This document shows, in pieces, positions 1 through 56,878 of a stretch of DNA of 64,000 nt. The position numbers and the translations under genes were made by a program. Below the pieces are notes generated by a model. It was not told the DNA's origin. It searched no databases and was given only the letters and a program-made list of their open reading frames with translations. How positions within the stretch are numbered: the stretch's first letter is position 1; each line of letters starts with the position of its first letter. Source of the stretch: Halobaculum sp. XH14 (GTDB taxonomy: Archaea > Halobacteriota > Halobacteria > Halobacteriales > Haloferacaceae); NCBI RefSeq assembly GCF_032116555.1, contig NZ_CP134949.1:1426001-1490000 (forward strand), given 5' to 3'.

Positions 1-1864
1 TCACGCCCCCGGTCGTGGACTGCTTGCCGCGACAGCCGCCACAGCCGTGACAGAGTTCGGCCATGCCCGCGAAGCCGTTCTCGTTCCGCCAGTTCAGTTC
101 GGGTTCGAAGCCCGCGTCGAAGTCGTAGGCCGAGTCGAACCGGAGGTTCTCCGTCAGGTCGGCGTCGCCACAGACGTTCCCGGGGTTCAACAACCAGTCC
201 GGGTCGAACGCGGTCTTGAGCGACCGGAACGTCTCCCAGAGCTCGTCGCCGTACAGCTTCCGGTTCCACTGGGTTCGCGCCCGGCCGTCGCCGTGCTCGC
301 CCGACACCGACCCGCCGAACTCGACGACCAGATCCGTCGCGCGGTCCGCGATGTCGTACATCGTCTCGCGGTCGTCCACGTCCTTCGTGTTGACCAGCGG
401 CCTGACGTGGAGCACGCCCGGCCCCGCGTGGGCGTAGAAGGCGGCGAACGTGTCGTTGTCCGCGAGGATCTCCTCGAAGCCGGCGACGTACTCCGCGAGG
501 TGCTCGGGCGGCACCGCACAGTCCTCGATGTACGAGATGTGCTTGGCGTCGGAGGTGCGGCTGAGGAGGATCGGCATGCCGGCCTTGCGCATCTTCCAGA
601 ACGTCGCCCGCCGGTCGGCGTCGTGGGCTTCGAGGGCGGCCTCGGCGCGGACCGGCGCGTCGGCCTCGACCCGTCCCTCGGTCGGATCCGCATCCGTCTC
701 CGTTCCCGGAACGCGGTCGGCGACCAGATCCGCGACCTTCCCGCGCCCCTCCGCGTCGTCCCCGGCGTAGAACTCGACGAGCAGCACGGAGTCGGTCCCC
801 TCCGGGAGCAGATCCACGACCGGGCCGAACTCCGCCGTCTCGCGGGCGAGTCCGAGGAACACGTCGTCCATCACCTCGACCGCGGCCGGGTCGTGTTCGA
901 GGATGGGGCCGACGTCCTCCATCGCGTCCGCGAGCGACGAGTAGGTGAGCAGCGCGACCGCCTTCGTCTCGGGCACGGGGACGAGCGACACCTCGACCTC
1001 GGTGACGACCGCGAGCGTCCCCTCGCTGCCGGCCATGAGCCGGCCGAGGTTGACCACGTCCGCCTCACCCCGCTCGCCGTTCGCCTCCTCGACGAGCACG
1101 TCCAGGTTGTACCCCGACACGTTCCGCTTCATGTCCGGGAACCGCTCCTCGACGGCGTCGGCGTCCTCCTCGAGGATCCGGACGACCTCGGCGTAGATCC
1201 GTTCGCGGACGCTCCCGTCCGGGTCGCCCGCCTCGCGCATCGTCTCGACCGCGACGTCGCCGAACGTCTCGACGCTCCCGTCGGCGAGCACCACCTCGCA
1301 TTCCTCGACGTACGCGTCCGTCTTCCCGTACTTCAGCGAGTGTGACCCGGTGGAGTTGTTGCCGACCGCGCCGCCCATCGCCGACTTGTCGCGCCAGGCG
1401 GGGTCCGGCGCGAACTTCAGGCCGTCGGGCGCGAGCGCCTCGTTCAGATCGCCGAGGATGCACCCCGCCTGGACCCGCGCGCGACGGGCGTCCGCGTCCG
1501 TCCCGAGGATGCCGTCCATGTATCTGGTGAAATCCAGCACGACCGCCTCGTTCACCGTCTGGCCCGCGAGCGAGGTGCCGCCCCCGCGCGGCAACACCGG
1601 AATCCCCTCGTCCGCGCAGTAGCCCATCACCGCGGCGACGTCCCCGGTCGAGCGGGGGAGCACGACGCCGATCGGCGTCACCTCGTAGGCCGACGCGTCC
1701 GTCGCGTACAGCTGTCTGGAGTAGGTGTCGAAGCGGACGTCGCCCTCGACGCGCGTCTCCAGGGCGGCAACCAGGTCCGGTCGGGCGACCTCCTCGGAGG
1801 TGAAGTCGTAGTCCGCCCCCTCCAGCGCCGGATCGCCGGAGGGAGTCGGTGCGTCGGAACTCAT
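1..1864 (-). CDS. FAD-linked oxidase with C-terminal Fe-S region (glycolate/D-lactate dehydrogenase type), 3' end cut off
   Basis: Reading the minus strand from the ATG at 1864 gives an uninterrupted frame to the window edge (621 codons seen). The N-terminal half has the FAD-binding PCMH features of GlcD/Dld proteins: an LPRGGGTSLAGQ segment near residues 95-106 and a GAVGNNSTG segment near residue 165. The C-terminal FAD-oxidase part contains SGEHGDGRAR, a substrate/flavin loop of the family. The last visible residues, CHGCGGCRGK, begin a cysteine cluster, so a fused Fe-S domain follows beyond the window. It likely oxidises a 2-hydroxy acid such as D-lactate or glycolate and passes electrons to the chain. 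A TTAT box near 1890-1896 lies about 27 nt upstream of the ATG, fitting a leaderless transcript. It is divergent from lutC. Exact substrate is not determined. Confidence 0.88.
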   Translation of the reverse strand, partial: MSSDAPTPSGDPALEGADYDFTSEEVARPDLVAALETRVEGDVRFDTYSRQLYATDASAYEVTPIGVVLPRSTGDVAAVMGYCADEGIPVLPRGGGTSLAGQTVNEAVVLDFTRYMDGILGTDADARRARVQAGCILGDLNEALAPDGLKFAPDPAWRDKSAMGGAVGNNSTGSHSLKYGKTDAYVEECEVVLADGSVETFGDVAVETMREAGDPDGSVRERIYAEVVRILEEDADAVEERFPDMKRNVSGYNLDVLVEEANGERGEADVVNLGRLMAGSEGTLAVVTEVEVSLVPVPETKAVALLTYSSLADAMEDVGPILEHDPAAVEVMDDVFLGLARETAEFGPVVDLLPEGTDSVLLVEFYAGDDAEGRGKVADLVADRVPGTETDADPTEGRVEADAPVRAEAALEAHDADRRATFWKMRKAGMPILLSRTSDAKHISYIEDCAVPPEHLAEYVAGFEEILADNDTFAAFYAHAGPGVLHVRPLVNTKDVDDRETMYDIADRATDLVVEFGGSVSGEHGDGRARTQWNRKLYGDELWETFRSLKTAFDPDWLLNPGNVCGDADLTENLRFDSAYDFDAGFEPELNWRNENGFAGMAELCHGCGGCRGKQSTTGGV

Positions 1865-6735: not shown

Positions 6736-6744
6736 GCCTTAAGC
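6736..6744 (-). promoter_or_regulatory. TATA box of the TrkA-N/DHH gene
   Basis: On the minus strand the sequence reads GCTTAAGGC, the only TA-rich spot upstream, centred about 30 nt before the ATG at 6709. It decides the start choice and implies little or no 5' leader. Confidence 0.5.
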
Positions 6745-6823
6745 GGTGATGTTCGTTCACGCCCGCGCGGCGGGTGGGAAGCGGAAGGCATTTTACACGC
6801 ACGGCGGAACGTAGACTCGCCGA

Positions 6824-6897
6824 GGGCCGGTAGCTCAGTTAGGGAGAGCGACGGACTCTTAATCCGTCGGTCGGGGGTTCAAATCCCTCCCGGCCCG
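6824..6897 (+). tRNA. tRNA-Lys (anticodon CTT)
   Basis: A 74-nt cloverleaf. The acceptor stem GGGCCGG pairs with CCGGCCC at 6890-6896, with G as discriminator at 6897. The D-arm contains TAGCTCAGTT, the anticodon loop reads CTCTTAA (anticodon CTT), and the T-arm loop TTCAAAT closes a GGGGG/CCCTC stem. No intron and no encoded CCA. A TTTTACA box lies about 30 nt upstream. The gene is followed directly by a 119-nt unit that repeats its 3' end. Confidence 0.97.
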
Positions 6898-7016
6898 TGG
6901 AACGAGACGGTGAGCGGAGCGAACCCTCGAGTGGAACGGAGAGGGAGGGATTCGAACTAGACCGGGCGCGCGCAGCGAAGCGAGCACGTCCGGGCGTGGT
7001 TCAAATCCCCGGCCCG
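6898..7016 (+). repeat. tRNA-Lys-flanked miniature element with inverted and direct T-arm copies
   Basis: Directly after tRNA-Lys. An inverted copy of the T-arm lies at 6943-6957 (14 of 15 bases match the complement of 6877-6891). A direct copy of the tRNA 3' end, GGTTCAAATCCCCGGCCCG, closes the unit at 6998-7016. Between them is an AGCGAAGCGAG stretch. The same layout follows tRNA-Leu(TAG) and tRNA-Glu with nearly the same length. There is no reading frame of note. A TTTT follows at 7017-7020 and could end the tRNA transcript. The origin as a mobile or tRNA-derived element is inferred. Confidence 0.65.
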
Positions 7017-10633: not shown

Positions 10634-11818
10634 TTACAGTTCGGCCGCGACGGTCTCGGTTCCCGCGCCCACGTCCACGTTCGCACCGTGGTCGCGGAGC
10701 GTCTCGCCGAGCGCGCTCGCGAGGAACGAGACGTTCCCCGGGCGGGCGGAGTGGCCCATGCAGCCGATGCGGAAGACGTCCCCCGAGAGGTCGCCGAGCC
10801 CGCCGGCGATCTCGAGGTCGTACTCCGAGAGCAGGTCGTCGATGACCGCGCCGTCGTCGACGCCGGCCGGGACGCGGACGGCGTTGAGACTCGGGAGCCA
10901 GAACTCGTCGGCGGCGTTCATCTCCAGCCCCATCGCCTCCACGCCGGCCTTCAGCGCGCCGGCGACGCGGCGGTGACGGCCCCACCGCTCCTCGATGCCC
11001 TCCTCGGCGACGAGACGGAGTGCCTCCCGGAGCGCGTAGACGTTGGTGATCGGTGCCGTGTGGTGGTACGCGCGCTCGTCGCCCCAGTACCCCTCCAGCA
11101 GCGAGAGGTCGAGATACCACGAGCGGGCCGGCTCCTCCCGGCTCAACACCTTGTCCATCGCGCGGTCGTTCAGGGTGAGCGGCGACGCGCCAGGCGGGCA
11201 CGAGAGACACTTCTGGGGGCCCGAGTAGGCGACGTCGACGTTCCAGTCGTCCACCCGTAGCTCCACGCCGCCCAGCGACGTGACGCAGTCGGCGACGACG
11301 TACGCGTCGTGGTCGTGCGCGATGGAGGTGAGTTCGGGGACGCTCGGCTGCAGCGCGCCGGTCGACGTCTCGGCGTGGACGAAGCCGAACACGTCGGGCT
11401 GGTGTTCGTCGAAGGCGTCCTGCACGTCGGCCGGGTCGAGCGGTTCGCCCCACGGCGCGTCGACCTCGGCGACCTCGCCGCCGGCGCGGCGGGCCATCTC
11501 GGCCATCCGGCCGCCGAAGTAGCCGTTCGTCGGGACGAGCATCGTCTCGCCCGGCTCGACGAGGTTGCCGATGGCGGCCTCCATCGACGCCGACCCCGTC
11601 CCCGAGACGGGAATCGTCCACCGGTTGTCCGTCCGGAACGTGTAGCGGAGCAGTTCCTGGGTCTCGTCCATCACGTCGATGAACGACGGGTCGAGGTGTC
11701 CGACGAGCGGGGTCGCCATCGCGCGGAGCACGCGCGGGTGAACGTCGCTCGGGCCGGGGCCCATCAGGGTTCGATCGGACGGCGTGAGTTCGCCGACGTC
11801 GGGTCGGTCCATGCTCAT
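10634..11818 (-). CDS. Class V aminotransferase (serine-pyruvate / alanine-glyoxylate type)
   Basis: 394 aa. MGPGPSDVHPRVLRAM at the start is the substrate-loop signature of the AGXT/SerA-like class V family. VSGTGSASMEAAIGNLV, near residue 70, binds the PLP phosphate, and the catalytic lysine sits in YSGPQKCLSCPPG near residue 200. It catalyses PLP-dependent amino transfer, probably between alanine or serine and glyoxylate or pyruvate. A CTTTTG box about 22-27 nt upstream fits starts at 11818 or 11812. Divergent from nop5. Confidence 0.88.
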   Translation of the reverse strand: MSMDRPDVGELTPSDRTLMGPGPSDVHPRVLRAMATPLVGHLDPSFIDVMDETQELLRYTFRTDNRWTIPVSGTGSASMEAAIGNLVEPGETMLVPTNGYFGGRMAEMARRAGGEVAEVDAPWGEPLDPADVQDAFDEHQPDVFGFVHAETSTGALQPSVPELTSIAHDHDAYVVADCVTSLGGVELRVDDWNVDVAYSGPQKCLSCPPGASPLTLNDRAMDKVLSREEPARSWYLDLSLLEGYWGDERAYHHTAPITNVYALREALRLVAEEGIEERWGRHRRVAGALKAGVEAMGLEMNAADEFWLPSLNAVRVPAGVDDGAVIDDLLSEYDLEIAGGLGDLSGDVFRIGCMGHSARPGNVSFLASALGETLRDHGANVDVGAGTETVAAEL

Positions 11819-11914
11819 GGCCACCACGGGCCGGGGCAAAAGCGCCGCGCTTCCGGACGGTGCGGCCGCGTCCAACGGGGAACGCTTACCCGCGCCCCCT
11901 CGGAAGACGACGGT

Positions 11915-16711: not shown

Positions 16712-16796
16712 GCGCGGGTAGCCAAGCCAGGCCAACGGCGCAGCGCTTAGGACGCTGTCCCATAGGGGTCCGCCGGTTCGAATCCGGTCCCGCGCA
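16712..16796 (+). tRNA. tRNA-Leu (anticodon TAG)
   Basis: An 85-nt class II tRNA. The acceptor GCGCGGG pairs with CCCGCGC at 16789-16795, with discriminator A at 16796. The anticodon stem-loop GCGCTTAGGACGC gives TAG, the long variable arm is GTCCCATAGGGGTCC-like, and the T-arm reads CCGGTTCGAATCCGG. No intron. Followed by a 115-nt unit that repeats its 3' end. Confidence 0.96.
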
Positions 16797-16911
16797 GTGA
16801 CCGTCGCGAGCGGAGCGAGCGGCGTGAACGAGCAGGACCGAATTCGAAGGAGACGAGGCGCGCACGGTGGAGCGAGCAGGTCTCGGGGTGGTTCGAATCC
16901 GGTTTCCGTGC
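16797..16911 (+). repeat. tRNA-Leu-flanked miniature element with inverted and direct T-arm copies
   Basis: An inverted T-arm copy, GGACCGAATTCGAA, lies at 16835-16848 (13 of 14 bases match the complement of the tRNA). A direct copy of the T-arm and acceptor 3' strand, GGTTCGAATCCGGTTTCC plus GTGC, closes the unit at 16890-16911. GAGAC at 16850-16854 can pair with GTCTC at 16880-16884 to form a hairpin between the two copies. Length and order match the units after tRNA-Lys and tRNA-Glu. Confidence 0.65.
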
Positions 16912-17010: not shown

Positions 17011-17264
17011 CTCGCTTCGCTCGTTCGCGCTGTGGTGCTTGTCGGTCCGCGCTTACGGAAGACTCGCTTCGCTCGACTTCCGAATTCTCGTTCGCTTCTC
17101 GCTCACGAGAGCTTCCCCGACGGAAGCGGCCCCTTTCAGTCCCACCCGACCGCGACCGTACGGCACGGCCACATGCCTCCCTTACCTCGGAGCACGCTCC
17201 TCGGAACTCACCCTCGCTTCGCTCGCGTGAACAGCCGATTCGCTCGGTTGGCTCGCTTCGCTCG
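17011..17264. repeat. Gene-free region with four exact CTCGCTTCGCTCG repeats
   Basis: Between the tRNA-Leu unit and dacZ (16912-17491) no convincing gene is seen; long frames here are antisense or read-through artefacts with atypical composition. The 13-mer CTCGCTTCGCTCG occurs exactly at 17011, 17063, 17213 and 17252. Its complement is the CGAGCGAAGCGAG motif of the tRNA-flanked units, and a fifth exact copy lies in the tRNA-Glu unit at 56723. The stretch GCGGCCCCTTTCAGTCCCAC at 17126-17145 also looks like an intergenic repeat end. Confidence 0.5.
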
Positions 17265-56683: not shown

Positions 56684-56803
56684 ATGCTCGGTCAGGGATT
56701 GGAACCACACCGAGACGGTCGCCTCGCTTCGCTCGACGCCGCGTCTCGTCTACTTCAAATCCCCTACCTGGGCGTGTTCTTCCTCACTCCGTTCGTCAGA
56801 ACA
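56684..56803 (-). repeat. tRNA-Glu-flanked miniature element with inverted and direct T-arm copies
   Basis: Read on the minus strand after tRNA-Glu. An inverted T-arm copy lies at 56753-56765, and a direct copy of the tRNA 3' end at 56684-56705 that differs from the tRNA (56804-56825) at one base. CGAGAC at 56743-56748 pairs with GTCTCG at 56710-56715, making a long imperfect hairpin with the two T-arm copies. CTCGCTTCGCTCG lies at 56723-56735. Beyond 56684 a weaker second unit may follow (56590-56680), so the element may be tandem here. Confidence 0.65.
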
Positions 56804-56878
56804 TGCTCGGTCAGGGATTTGAACCCTGGTCGTCGGCTCGAAAGGCCAACATGATTGGCCGGACTACACCAACCGAGC
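56804..56878 (-). tRNA. tRNA-Glu (anticodon TTC)
   Basis: A 75-nt cloverleaf on the minus strand. GCTCGGT pairs with ACCGAGC, discriminator A at 56804. The D-arm has TGGTGTAGTCCGGCCAATCAT, the anticodon loop reads CTTTCGA (TTC) and the T-arm CAGGGTTCAAATCCCTG. No intron. Followed on its strand by a 120-nt unit repeating its 3' end. Confidence 0.96.

Follow-up and report, generated by a model that had tools for sequence, protein, structure and literature searches.

Downstream of tRNA genes in haloarchaea, we identified a family of short, gene-less units, which are probably a DNA-level, tRNA-tail-bound, non-autonomous mobile family. Each unit follows its host tRNA gene in the same order: a spacer, an inverted copy of the T-loop and the 3′ T-stem, a core hairpin, and the last 20 nt of the tRNA repeated. 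The unit measures ~100–150 nt, and occurs singly or in tandem. What is new is this anatomy, in which the outer arms of a gene-less unit copy its target; the chemistry of movement may well be that of an ordinary recombinase.

The family was recognized in a 64-kb stretch of DNA (hereafter, the window; G000:C1:1426001-1490000) from the genome of Halobaculum sp. XH14 (3.68 Mb, 43 tRNA matches). The initial annotation had reported three units, behind tRNA-Lys, tRNA-Leu(TAG), and tRNA-Glu, and re-examination of the sequence located each of them, as follows.

6824..6897, + strand: host tRNA-Lys(CTT) (ARAGORN, Rfam RF00005)
6898..6942, + strand: Lys unit, spacer, containing a small GAGCGGAGCGAA hairpin (sequence)
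6943..6956, + strand: Lys unit, inverted T-loop/3′ T-stem copy GGGAGGGATTCGAA (13/14 bases complementary to the host tail)
6957..6999, + strand: Lys unit, core hairpin CTAGACCGGGCG...CGTCCGGGCGTGG with a GCGAAGC apex (covariance model E 7e-13, which is not independent because the Lys unit was among the sequences used to build the model)
7000..7016, + strand: Lys unit, direct copy of the tRNA 3′ end TTCAAATCCCCGGCCCG, T-loop to discriminator (sequence)
16712..16796, + strand: host tRNA-Leu(TAG) (ARAGORN)
16797..16834, + strand: Leu unit, spacer with a GAGCGGAGCGAG mini-hairpin (sequence)
16835..16848, + strand: Leu unit, inverted arm GGACCGAATTCGAA (13/14)
16849..16891, + strand: Leu unit, core GGAGACGAGGCG...GGTCTCGGGGTGG (covariance model match 1.3e-12)
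16892..16911, + strand: Leu unit, direct tail copy, 3′ half decayed (sequence)
56804..56878, − strand: host tRNA-Glu(TTC) (ARAGORN, Rfam)
56768..56803, − strand: Glu unit, spacer (its initial 17 nt can be aligned to the native flank in the unit-less congener G002)
56754..56767, − strand: Glu unit, inverted arm GTAGGGGATTTGAA (12/14)
56705..56753, − strand: Glu unit, core GTAGACGAGACG...CCGTCTCGGTGTGG with a GCGAAGC apex (covariance model match 1.7e-18)
56685..56704, − strand: Glu unit, direct tail copy, 19/20 (the copy and the next flank align with the G002 empty site)

The Lys unit and its counterpart behind the corresponding tRNA of the congener G001 were 91% identical, and the Lys direct copy in the window had lost 3 nt relative to the host tail. 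The GTGG preceding the tail copy, previously described as foreign to the host tRNA, is indeed not host T-stem. No unit follows Ser-GCT or Leu-CAG, the only other tRNAs in the window. Rfam at gathering thresholds returned only tRNAs across the whole window, and no described RNA family was matched by the units. Similarly, no published description was found in the open-access literature, in line with the earlier remark that none was known; subscription journals or preprints may hold one. As a separate observation, a 253-nt stretch immediately downstream of the Leu unit (17011-17263, − strand) contains four exact GAGCGAAGCGAG mini-hairpin motifs. The window contains six of these motifs, compared to 0.17 expected; the motif is also present outside tRNA units and may be a wider haloarchaeal repeat component.

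To map the arrangement genome-wide, an inverted plus a direct tail copy was sought within 200 nt downstream of all 43 tRNAs. It was found at Lys-CTT, Lys-TTT, Leu-TAG, Glu-TTC, Ser-GGA, Met-CAT, Arg-CCG, and Gly-TCC. Traces of it were seen at Thr-CGT and Arg-CCT, and about 8–10 of the 43 tRNA genes of the host genome carry a unit. A covariance model (R1) built from eight units of this genome additionally detected a unit ~9.4 kb downstream of tRNA-Val-CAC. Chance occurrence was assessed with 131 tRNAs of three congeneric genomes, using 350 nt flanks and a cognate 20-nt tail match of at least 15/20. Cognate tail copies were observed downstream of 18 tRNAs and upstream of none, compared to 4.6 expected with shuffled non-cognate tails; the inverted 12-mer was found at 15 downstream and 0 upstream positions (1.5 expected). 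The tRNA-tail units are far beyond chance.

At the Val-CAC locus (L085, G000:C1:2352000-2365500), a 9.4-kb element sits between the tRNA and its unit. This element contains a split phage integrase (2848-3845; PF02899, PF00589), which is a decayed tyrosine recombinase, a second integrase-like fragment without a Pfam match (11273-11839), and a gene for a CitMHS/TrkA_C transporter. Since the recombinase is part of this larger element, which lies between the tRNA and the unit, it is not evidence of linkage. Elsewhere in the genome (L053, G000:C1:192951-193012), a weak R1 match (E 0.004) retains CGCCGAGACGG...GCGACTCGTC and no T-arms; it may be a decayed core or a chance match.

The initial annotation had named the lack of such units in other haloarchaea as evidence against a mobile origin and had proposed a covariance-model search. 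Instead, R1 matched 31/40 haloarchaeal relatives (29/38 genera), many of them with tandem matches. Across 148 sampled Halobacteriota genomes, R1 matches were confined to the order of the host, in which 20 of about 25 genomes were matched, compared to 0 of about 123 outside it. R1 derives from the host genome alone, its E-values are rough, and a genome without a match is not proof of absence; for the complete genomes G007, G010, and G032, which gave no match, a compositional failure of the model may be the reason. Furthermore, a DNA pattern search over 85,000 species genomes, with a pattern biased to GTGG-type ends, was conducted. Among the matches listed, the great majority were haloarchaeal (Halorhabdus, Natrialba, Natrinema, Halorubrum, Haloarcula, and others), and nearly all lay 35–80 nt, or unit multiples, behind a tRNA whose own tail recurs. 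A pooled set of 308 distinct tRNA loci, enriched for hits and including the listed pattern matches, yielded copies at 151 loci, with 234 units, 180 of them well formed, arrays of up to eight units, and at least 35 tRNA species. Thus, the proposal of one short family held, and its extent is far wider than the three tRNAs from which it was drawn. Units were collected with a tail match of at least 14/20 and an inverted arm of at least 10/14; these thresholds favour the canonical form, and therefore the per-position figures given below describe that set.

Non-haloarchaeal pattern matches (L111, L146, L169, and L173) were mostly real tRNA T-arms or chance. In an AT-rich Methanomassiliicoccales MAG (L120), two units with an identical plan follow a tRNA-Ser, one of them with a GAGCGAAGCGAG apex, a motif class that occurs just twice in that whole genome. 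These units look real. Their spacers (~6740-6960) also hold an inverted acceptor-strand piece, GCTGAGGG, ~25–30 nt before the inverted T-arm, which is not the rule in haloarchaea. A second candidate place in the same genome (L327) had no tRNA within about 1.5 kb. We also observed that a small contig of the congener G001 (C4, ~46-59 kb) clusters ~27 tRNA genes in 13 kb, resembling those of tRNA-rich viruses or plasmids.

The anatomy of the units was then resolved position by position. The spacer spans 22 to over 100 nt and starts pyrimidine-rich in 130/175 units; at Glu-TTC and Ser-GGA, it shares homology with the native flank found in relatives that lack the unit in question. The inverted arm, described earlier as a T-arm copy, was host-specific compared to permuted hosts over the 12 nt of the T-loop and the 3′ T-stem only. 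Its host match was 0.94–0.99 in the T-loop, fell along the T-stem (0.99, 0.92, 0.82, 0.61, and 0.55), and equalled background in the acceptor strand, so that, family-wide, the inverted arm stands as a host copy without the acceptor strand. The direct copy extends from T54 to the discriminator and matches the host across all 20 nt. At differences between copy and host, the inverted arm agreed with the host 22 times and with the copy twice. The inverted arm follows the host and not the copy; therefore, the arms are made from or selected against the tRNA sequence and then drift, and quasi-palindrome correction between the inverted arm and the copy is rejected.

Between the arms, the core measures 22–75 nt in most units, with a 5′ end of N-Y-A-G and a 3′ end of C-G-T-G-G. 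In the 5′ foot, the first two bases are variable, with A3 at 84% and G4 at 76%. The internal loop of the core was one base longer on the 3′ side in 101/121 measurable cores. All four Watson–Crick pairs occur in the 4-bp inner stem, and G.T or A.C almost never. A two-pair GNA mini-hairpin was present in the apex on the tRNA-sense strand of 130/171 cores, compared to 6 on the opposite strand and 38.6 in shuffles. Mini-hairpins with a GNA loop, for example d(GCGAAGC), are known to form extraordinarily stable structures in DNA (PMC4686876). Cores of the CCACGG type are an ordinary core class and not inverted cores.

Gain, loss, and exchange were analyzed through comparisons between species. In the search for empty sites that the initial annotation had called for, congeners differed by whole units. 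Within the genus, the Glu-TTC, Ser-GGA, and Leu-TAG units occur in the host genome only, a Leu-TAA unit occurs in G001, and a Gly-CCC unit in G002; Lys-TTT of G001 carries a different core class as a tandem duplicate. When the Glu-TTC locus was aligned with the empty site of G002, −374..17 aligned with −374..17 and 98..144 with −21..25, and the Ser-GGA empty site aligned likewise. In another genus, tRNA-Ser-GGA of five species is followed by three, one, one, a decayed, and one unit, respectively. The upstream flanks of these loci are 93–95% identical, the downstream gene is common to all, and a shared older unit and the native flank remain recognizable.

Cores also appear independently of their surroundings. 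In 60 pairs of units at different tRNA genes, part of them between Val isoacceptors, cores were at least 90% identical and spacers were unrelated. Conversely, adjacent units with identical spacers can carry unrelated cores. Identical tandem units occur in L090 and L089, and a chimeric core in L061. In Halovenus salina (L127), the core is flipped between its arms, the one clear flip among about 175 units. A systematic search for tails of other tRNAs inside arrays returned real downstream tRNAs alone. At tRNA-Lys-TTT of Halorubrum xinjiangense (L175), we noticed by eye a second unit whose tail resembles an Arg tRNA (TTTGAATCCCGTCGCGCCCG) and whose inverted arm fits Lys; this hybrid is a possible exchange between tRNA loci.

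We give about even chances to the proposal that the units are one family of gene-less cassettes at haloarchaeal tRNA 3′ ends, moved at the T-loop by a recombinase acting in trans. This proposal starts from what was observed (anatomy, host match, distribution, presence and absence, tandem arrays, core sharing, and one flipped core) and adds single-stranded DNA folding, strand exchange at the T-loop, and a trans-acting enzyme, for which a tyrosine recombinase is our favoured guess. The mobile part would be the core, bounded by two inverted T-loop sites. The tRNA-sense strand would fold as single-stranded DNA, and the inverted arm and the tail would pair, re-creating a double-stranded T-loop site, with the extra 3′ base of the core marking the strand. 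The recombinase would then exchange strands within the 7-bp T-loop TTCRAAT. Recombination between direct T-loops, one in the tRNA and one in the copy, would insert or delete entire units; the 20-nt tail would form the direct repeat, and the tRNA would stay intact. Recombination between the two inverted T-loops would swap the core between tRNAs, or rarely flip it, while spacer and T-stem stay with the host. Unit gain and loss bounded by tail repeats, and core exchange bounded by the two inverted T-loops, would both be achieved by one T-loop recombinase.

Strict T-loop identity with a relaxed T-stem is as would be expected of a crossover region and its arms. Furthermore, the one-base asymmetry and the stable DNA apex suggest, by analogy with integron attC, recognition of a folded single strand; the specific folded-strand recombinase mechanism has, at best, an even chance. 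The most complete version can be put forward only tentatively: an integron-like, gene-less system in haloarchaea and at least one Methanomassiliicoccales, in which a recombinase on folded single-stranded DNA would insert, delete, flip, and swap 22–75 nt hairpin cassettes at tRNA genes throughout an archaeal order, with the T-loops as sites. Against the cassette model stand the recombinase-free surroundings of intact units in the fetched loci, the lack of a viral or plasmid carrier in the searches described below, the single clear core flip, dynamics drawn from comparisons between species, and a sense-strand bias that suits RNA as well. In addition, a double-stranded circle of 100–150 bp would be unusually small, and simple strand exchange does not account for the inverted arm at a newly colonised tRNA.

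The observation that the units hold no gene and no integrase was borne out across haloarchaea, and in the fetched loci, no recombinase was encoded in or adjoining intact units. Neither a larger or autonomous version with an internal recombinase in the fetched loci nor a larger version in viral contigs was found. Patterns for two core types detected no haloviral carrier in viral contigs, and the plasmid search gave one weak match and no plasmid carrier. One viral-contig match (L330) was host flank with tRNA-Glu, and the matches L105-L108, L331, and L332 of the carrier search look like chance.

The regulatory tail suggested in the initial annotation is not favoured. According to this explanation, the hairpin acts as RNA in the pre-tRNA trailer, where the inverted arm pairs with the T-arm or the decoy copy and thereby controls folding or 3′ maturation. 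The hairpin is indeed located on the tRNA-sense strand, which folds better than its complement, and four of the five units that were folded gave z-scores of −3.1 to −5.6; this bias in loops and folding energy fits single-stranded DNA of that strand and equally RNA. However, arm mismatches in 175 units comprised 62 G.T and 59 A.C, so G.U is not preferred over A.C, and compensatory change between the arms is almost absent. The inner stem co-varies yet avoids G.U, which differs from the compensation with G-U tolerance that marks structured RNA. In addition, most tRNAs of a genome have no unit, congeners differ, and the pyrimidine- or T-rich start that often precedes the hairpin may terminate transcription. 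Taken together, an RNA function is unlikely. A derivation from larger integrative elements at tRNA 3′ ends, with the units as scars or attachment-site remnants after internal deletion, is rather unlikely as well. In its favour, tRNA-targeting integrases leave exactly such a tail repeat, and the 9.4-kb element at Val-CAC, with its decayed tyrosine recombinase, lies between a tRNA and a unit, as does a similar 3-kb gap in L166. Nevertheless, both units are outside the element and behind their own tail copy, and were therefore present independently. No full-size element or viral contig had the hairpin at its end, and unrelated elements would not yield one core architecture across at least 35 tRNA species.

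Alternatively, homologous recombination, slippage, and template switching alone might have generated the units through hairpin-prone sequence at a duplication junction, followed by gene conversion between tRNA loci and with no dedicated enzyme. The spacer resembles the native post-tRNA flank, and thus the tail and flank would have been duplicated together; the identical tandem units and the chimeric core described above also fit. Generic slippage would hardly produce an order-wide core architecture with a fixed +1 asymmetry, a GNA loop, and a GTGG end, and restriction to one order of the sampled phylum is hard to explain, leaving this origin about as unlikely as that from scars. Action in trans of an IS200/IS605-type Y1 transposase, with the inverted arm as guide at the hairpin foot and the T-loop as cleavage site, seems quite improbable. 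An imperfect hairpin with an extra stem base, a complementary stretch 5′ of the foot, and a target 3′ would suit such an enzyme, and GTAG/GGAG 5′ ends recall REP elements, whose 5′ ends are GTAG/GGAG-like. Nonetheless, known guides are shorter than the 12-nt complementarity seen here, the motif at the 5′ end varies, and IS200/IS605-type insertion is not known to create a 20-nt target duplication.

These results describe a hitherto undescribed repeat family behind a substantial minority of the tRNA genes of an entire archaeal order. If the units are recombinase cassettes, they represent a gene-less mobile element with outer arms from the host tRNA, provide a further natural example of site-specific recombination acting on folded single-stranded DNA, and explain some of the plasticity seen at tRNA 3′ ends, which are the most frequent hot spots of integration. 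In practice, the tRNA-tail copies can mislead boundary calls of proviruses and integrative elements as well as tRNA-fragment annotation.

Several known systems share features with the units. Casposase-type integration can repeat a tRNA 3′-end copy beside its anchor, and casposons and CRISPR arrays resemble the units in this respect; the units, in contrast, are similar hairpins and not diverse spacers or Cas1-coding elements, and the inverted arm is unaccounted for. The end hairpins of REP and IS200-IS605 elements are likewise imperfect and of one strand polarity, with a GTAG/GGAG-like foot in part of the family. However, the units as a whole lack a conserved GTAG/GGAG 5′ foot and add tail repeats, tRNA specificity, tandem arrays, and 12-nt flank complementarity. 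A MITE carries terminal inverted repeats that belong to the element and generates a short duplication at an arbitrary target. The MITE-like reading offered earlier holds insofar as the units are a short, gene-less, dispersed, and tRNA-specific family with an inverted repeat, presence and absence, tandems, and shared cores, presumably moved in trans. The strict label fails because it is the target, in every case a tRNA 3′ end, that the arms reproduce: the outer arms follow the host tRNA, and neither element-own terminal inverted repeats nor a short arbitrary target duplication is present.

Archaeal tyrosine-recombinase elements commonly integrate at tRNA 3′ ends (review PMC8371274), and the units share with them a tRNA 3′-end direct repeat and an intact tRNA. 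In contrast, the units measure ~100–150 nt and not kilobases, have no integrase or element genes between the repeats, and show an extra inverted arm and a single core architecture across many tRNAs. Integron attC arrays and CALINs have been reported in archaeal MAGs, haloarchaea not being named in the text searched (PMC9668308). The units differ from integron cassettes in that they hold no open reading frames, their spacers spanning 22 to over 100 nt and their cores mostly 22–75 nt. The attC core sites have the consensus RYYYAAC ... GTTRRRY, which the units lack; their site is the host tRNA T-loop plus tail, with a 3′ site of GTTCRAA (the host T-loop) and C as the base after the inverted GAA in only 30%. 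Nevertheless, like attC arrays and CALINs, the units form tandem arrays in which each unit ends in an imperfect inverted repeat with strand asymmetry, and, as in integrons, the arrays grow from a fixed anchor site with a short direct repeat as boundary.
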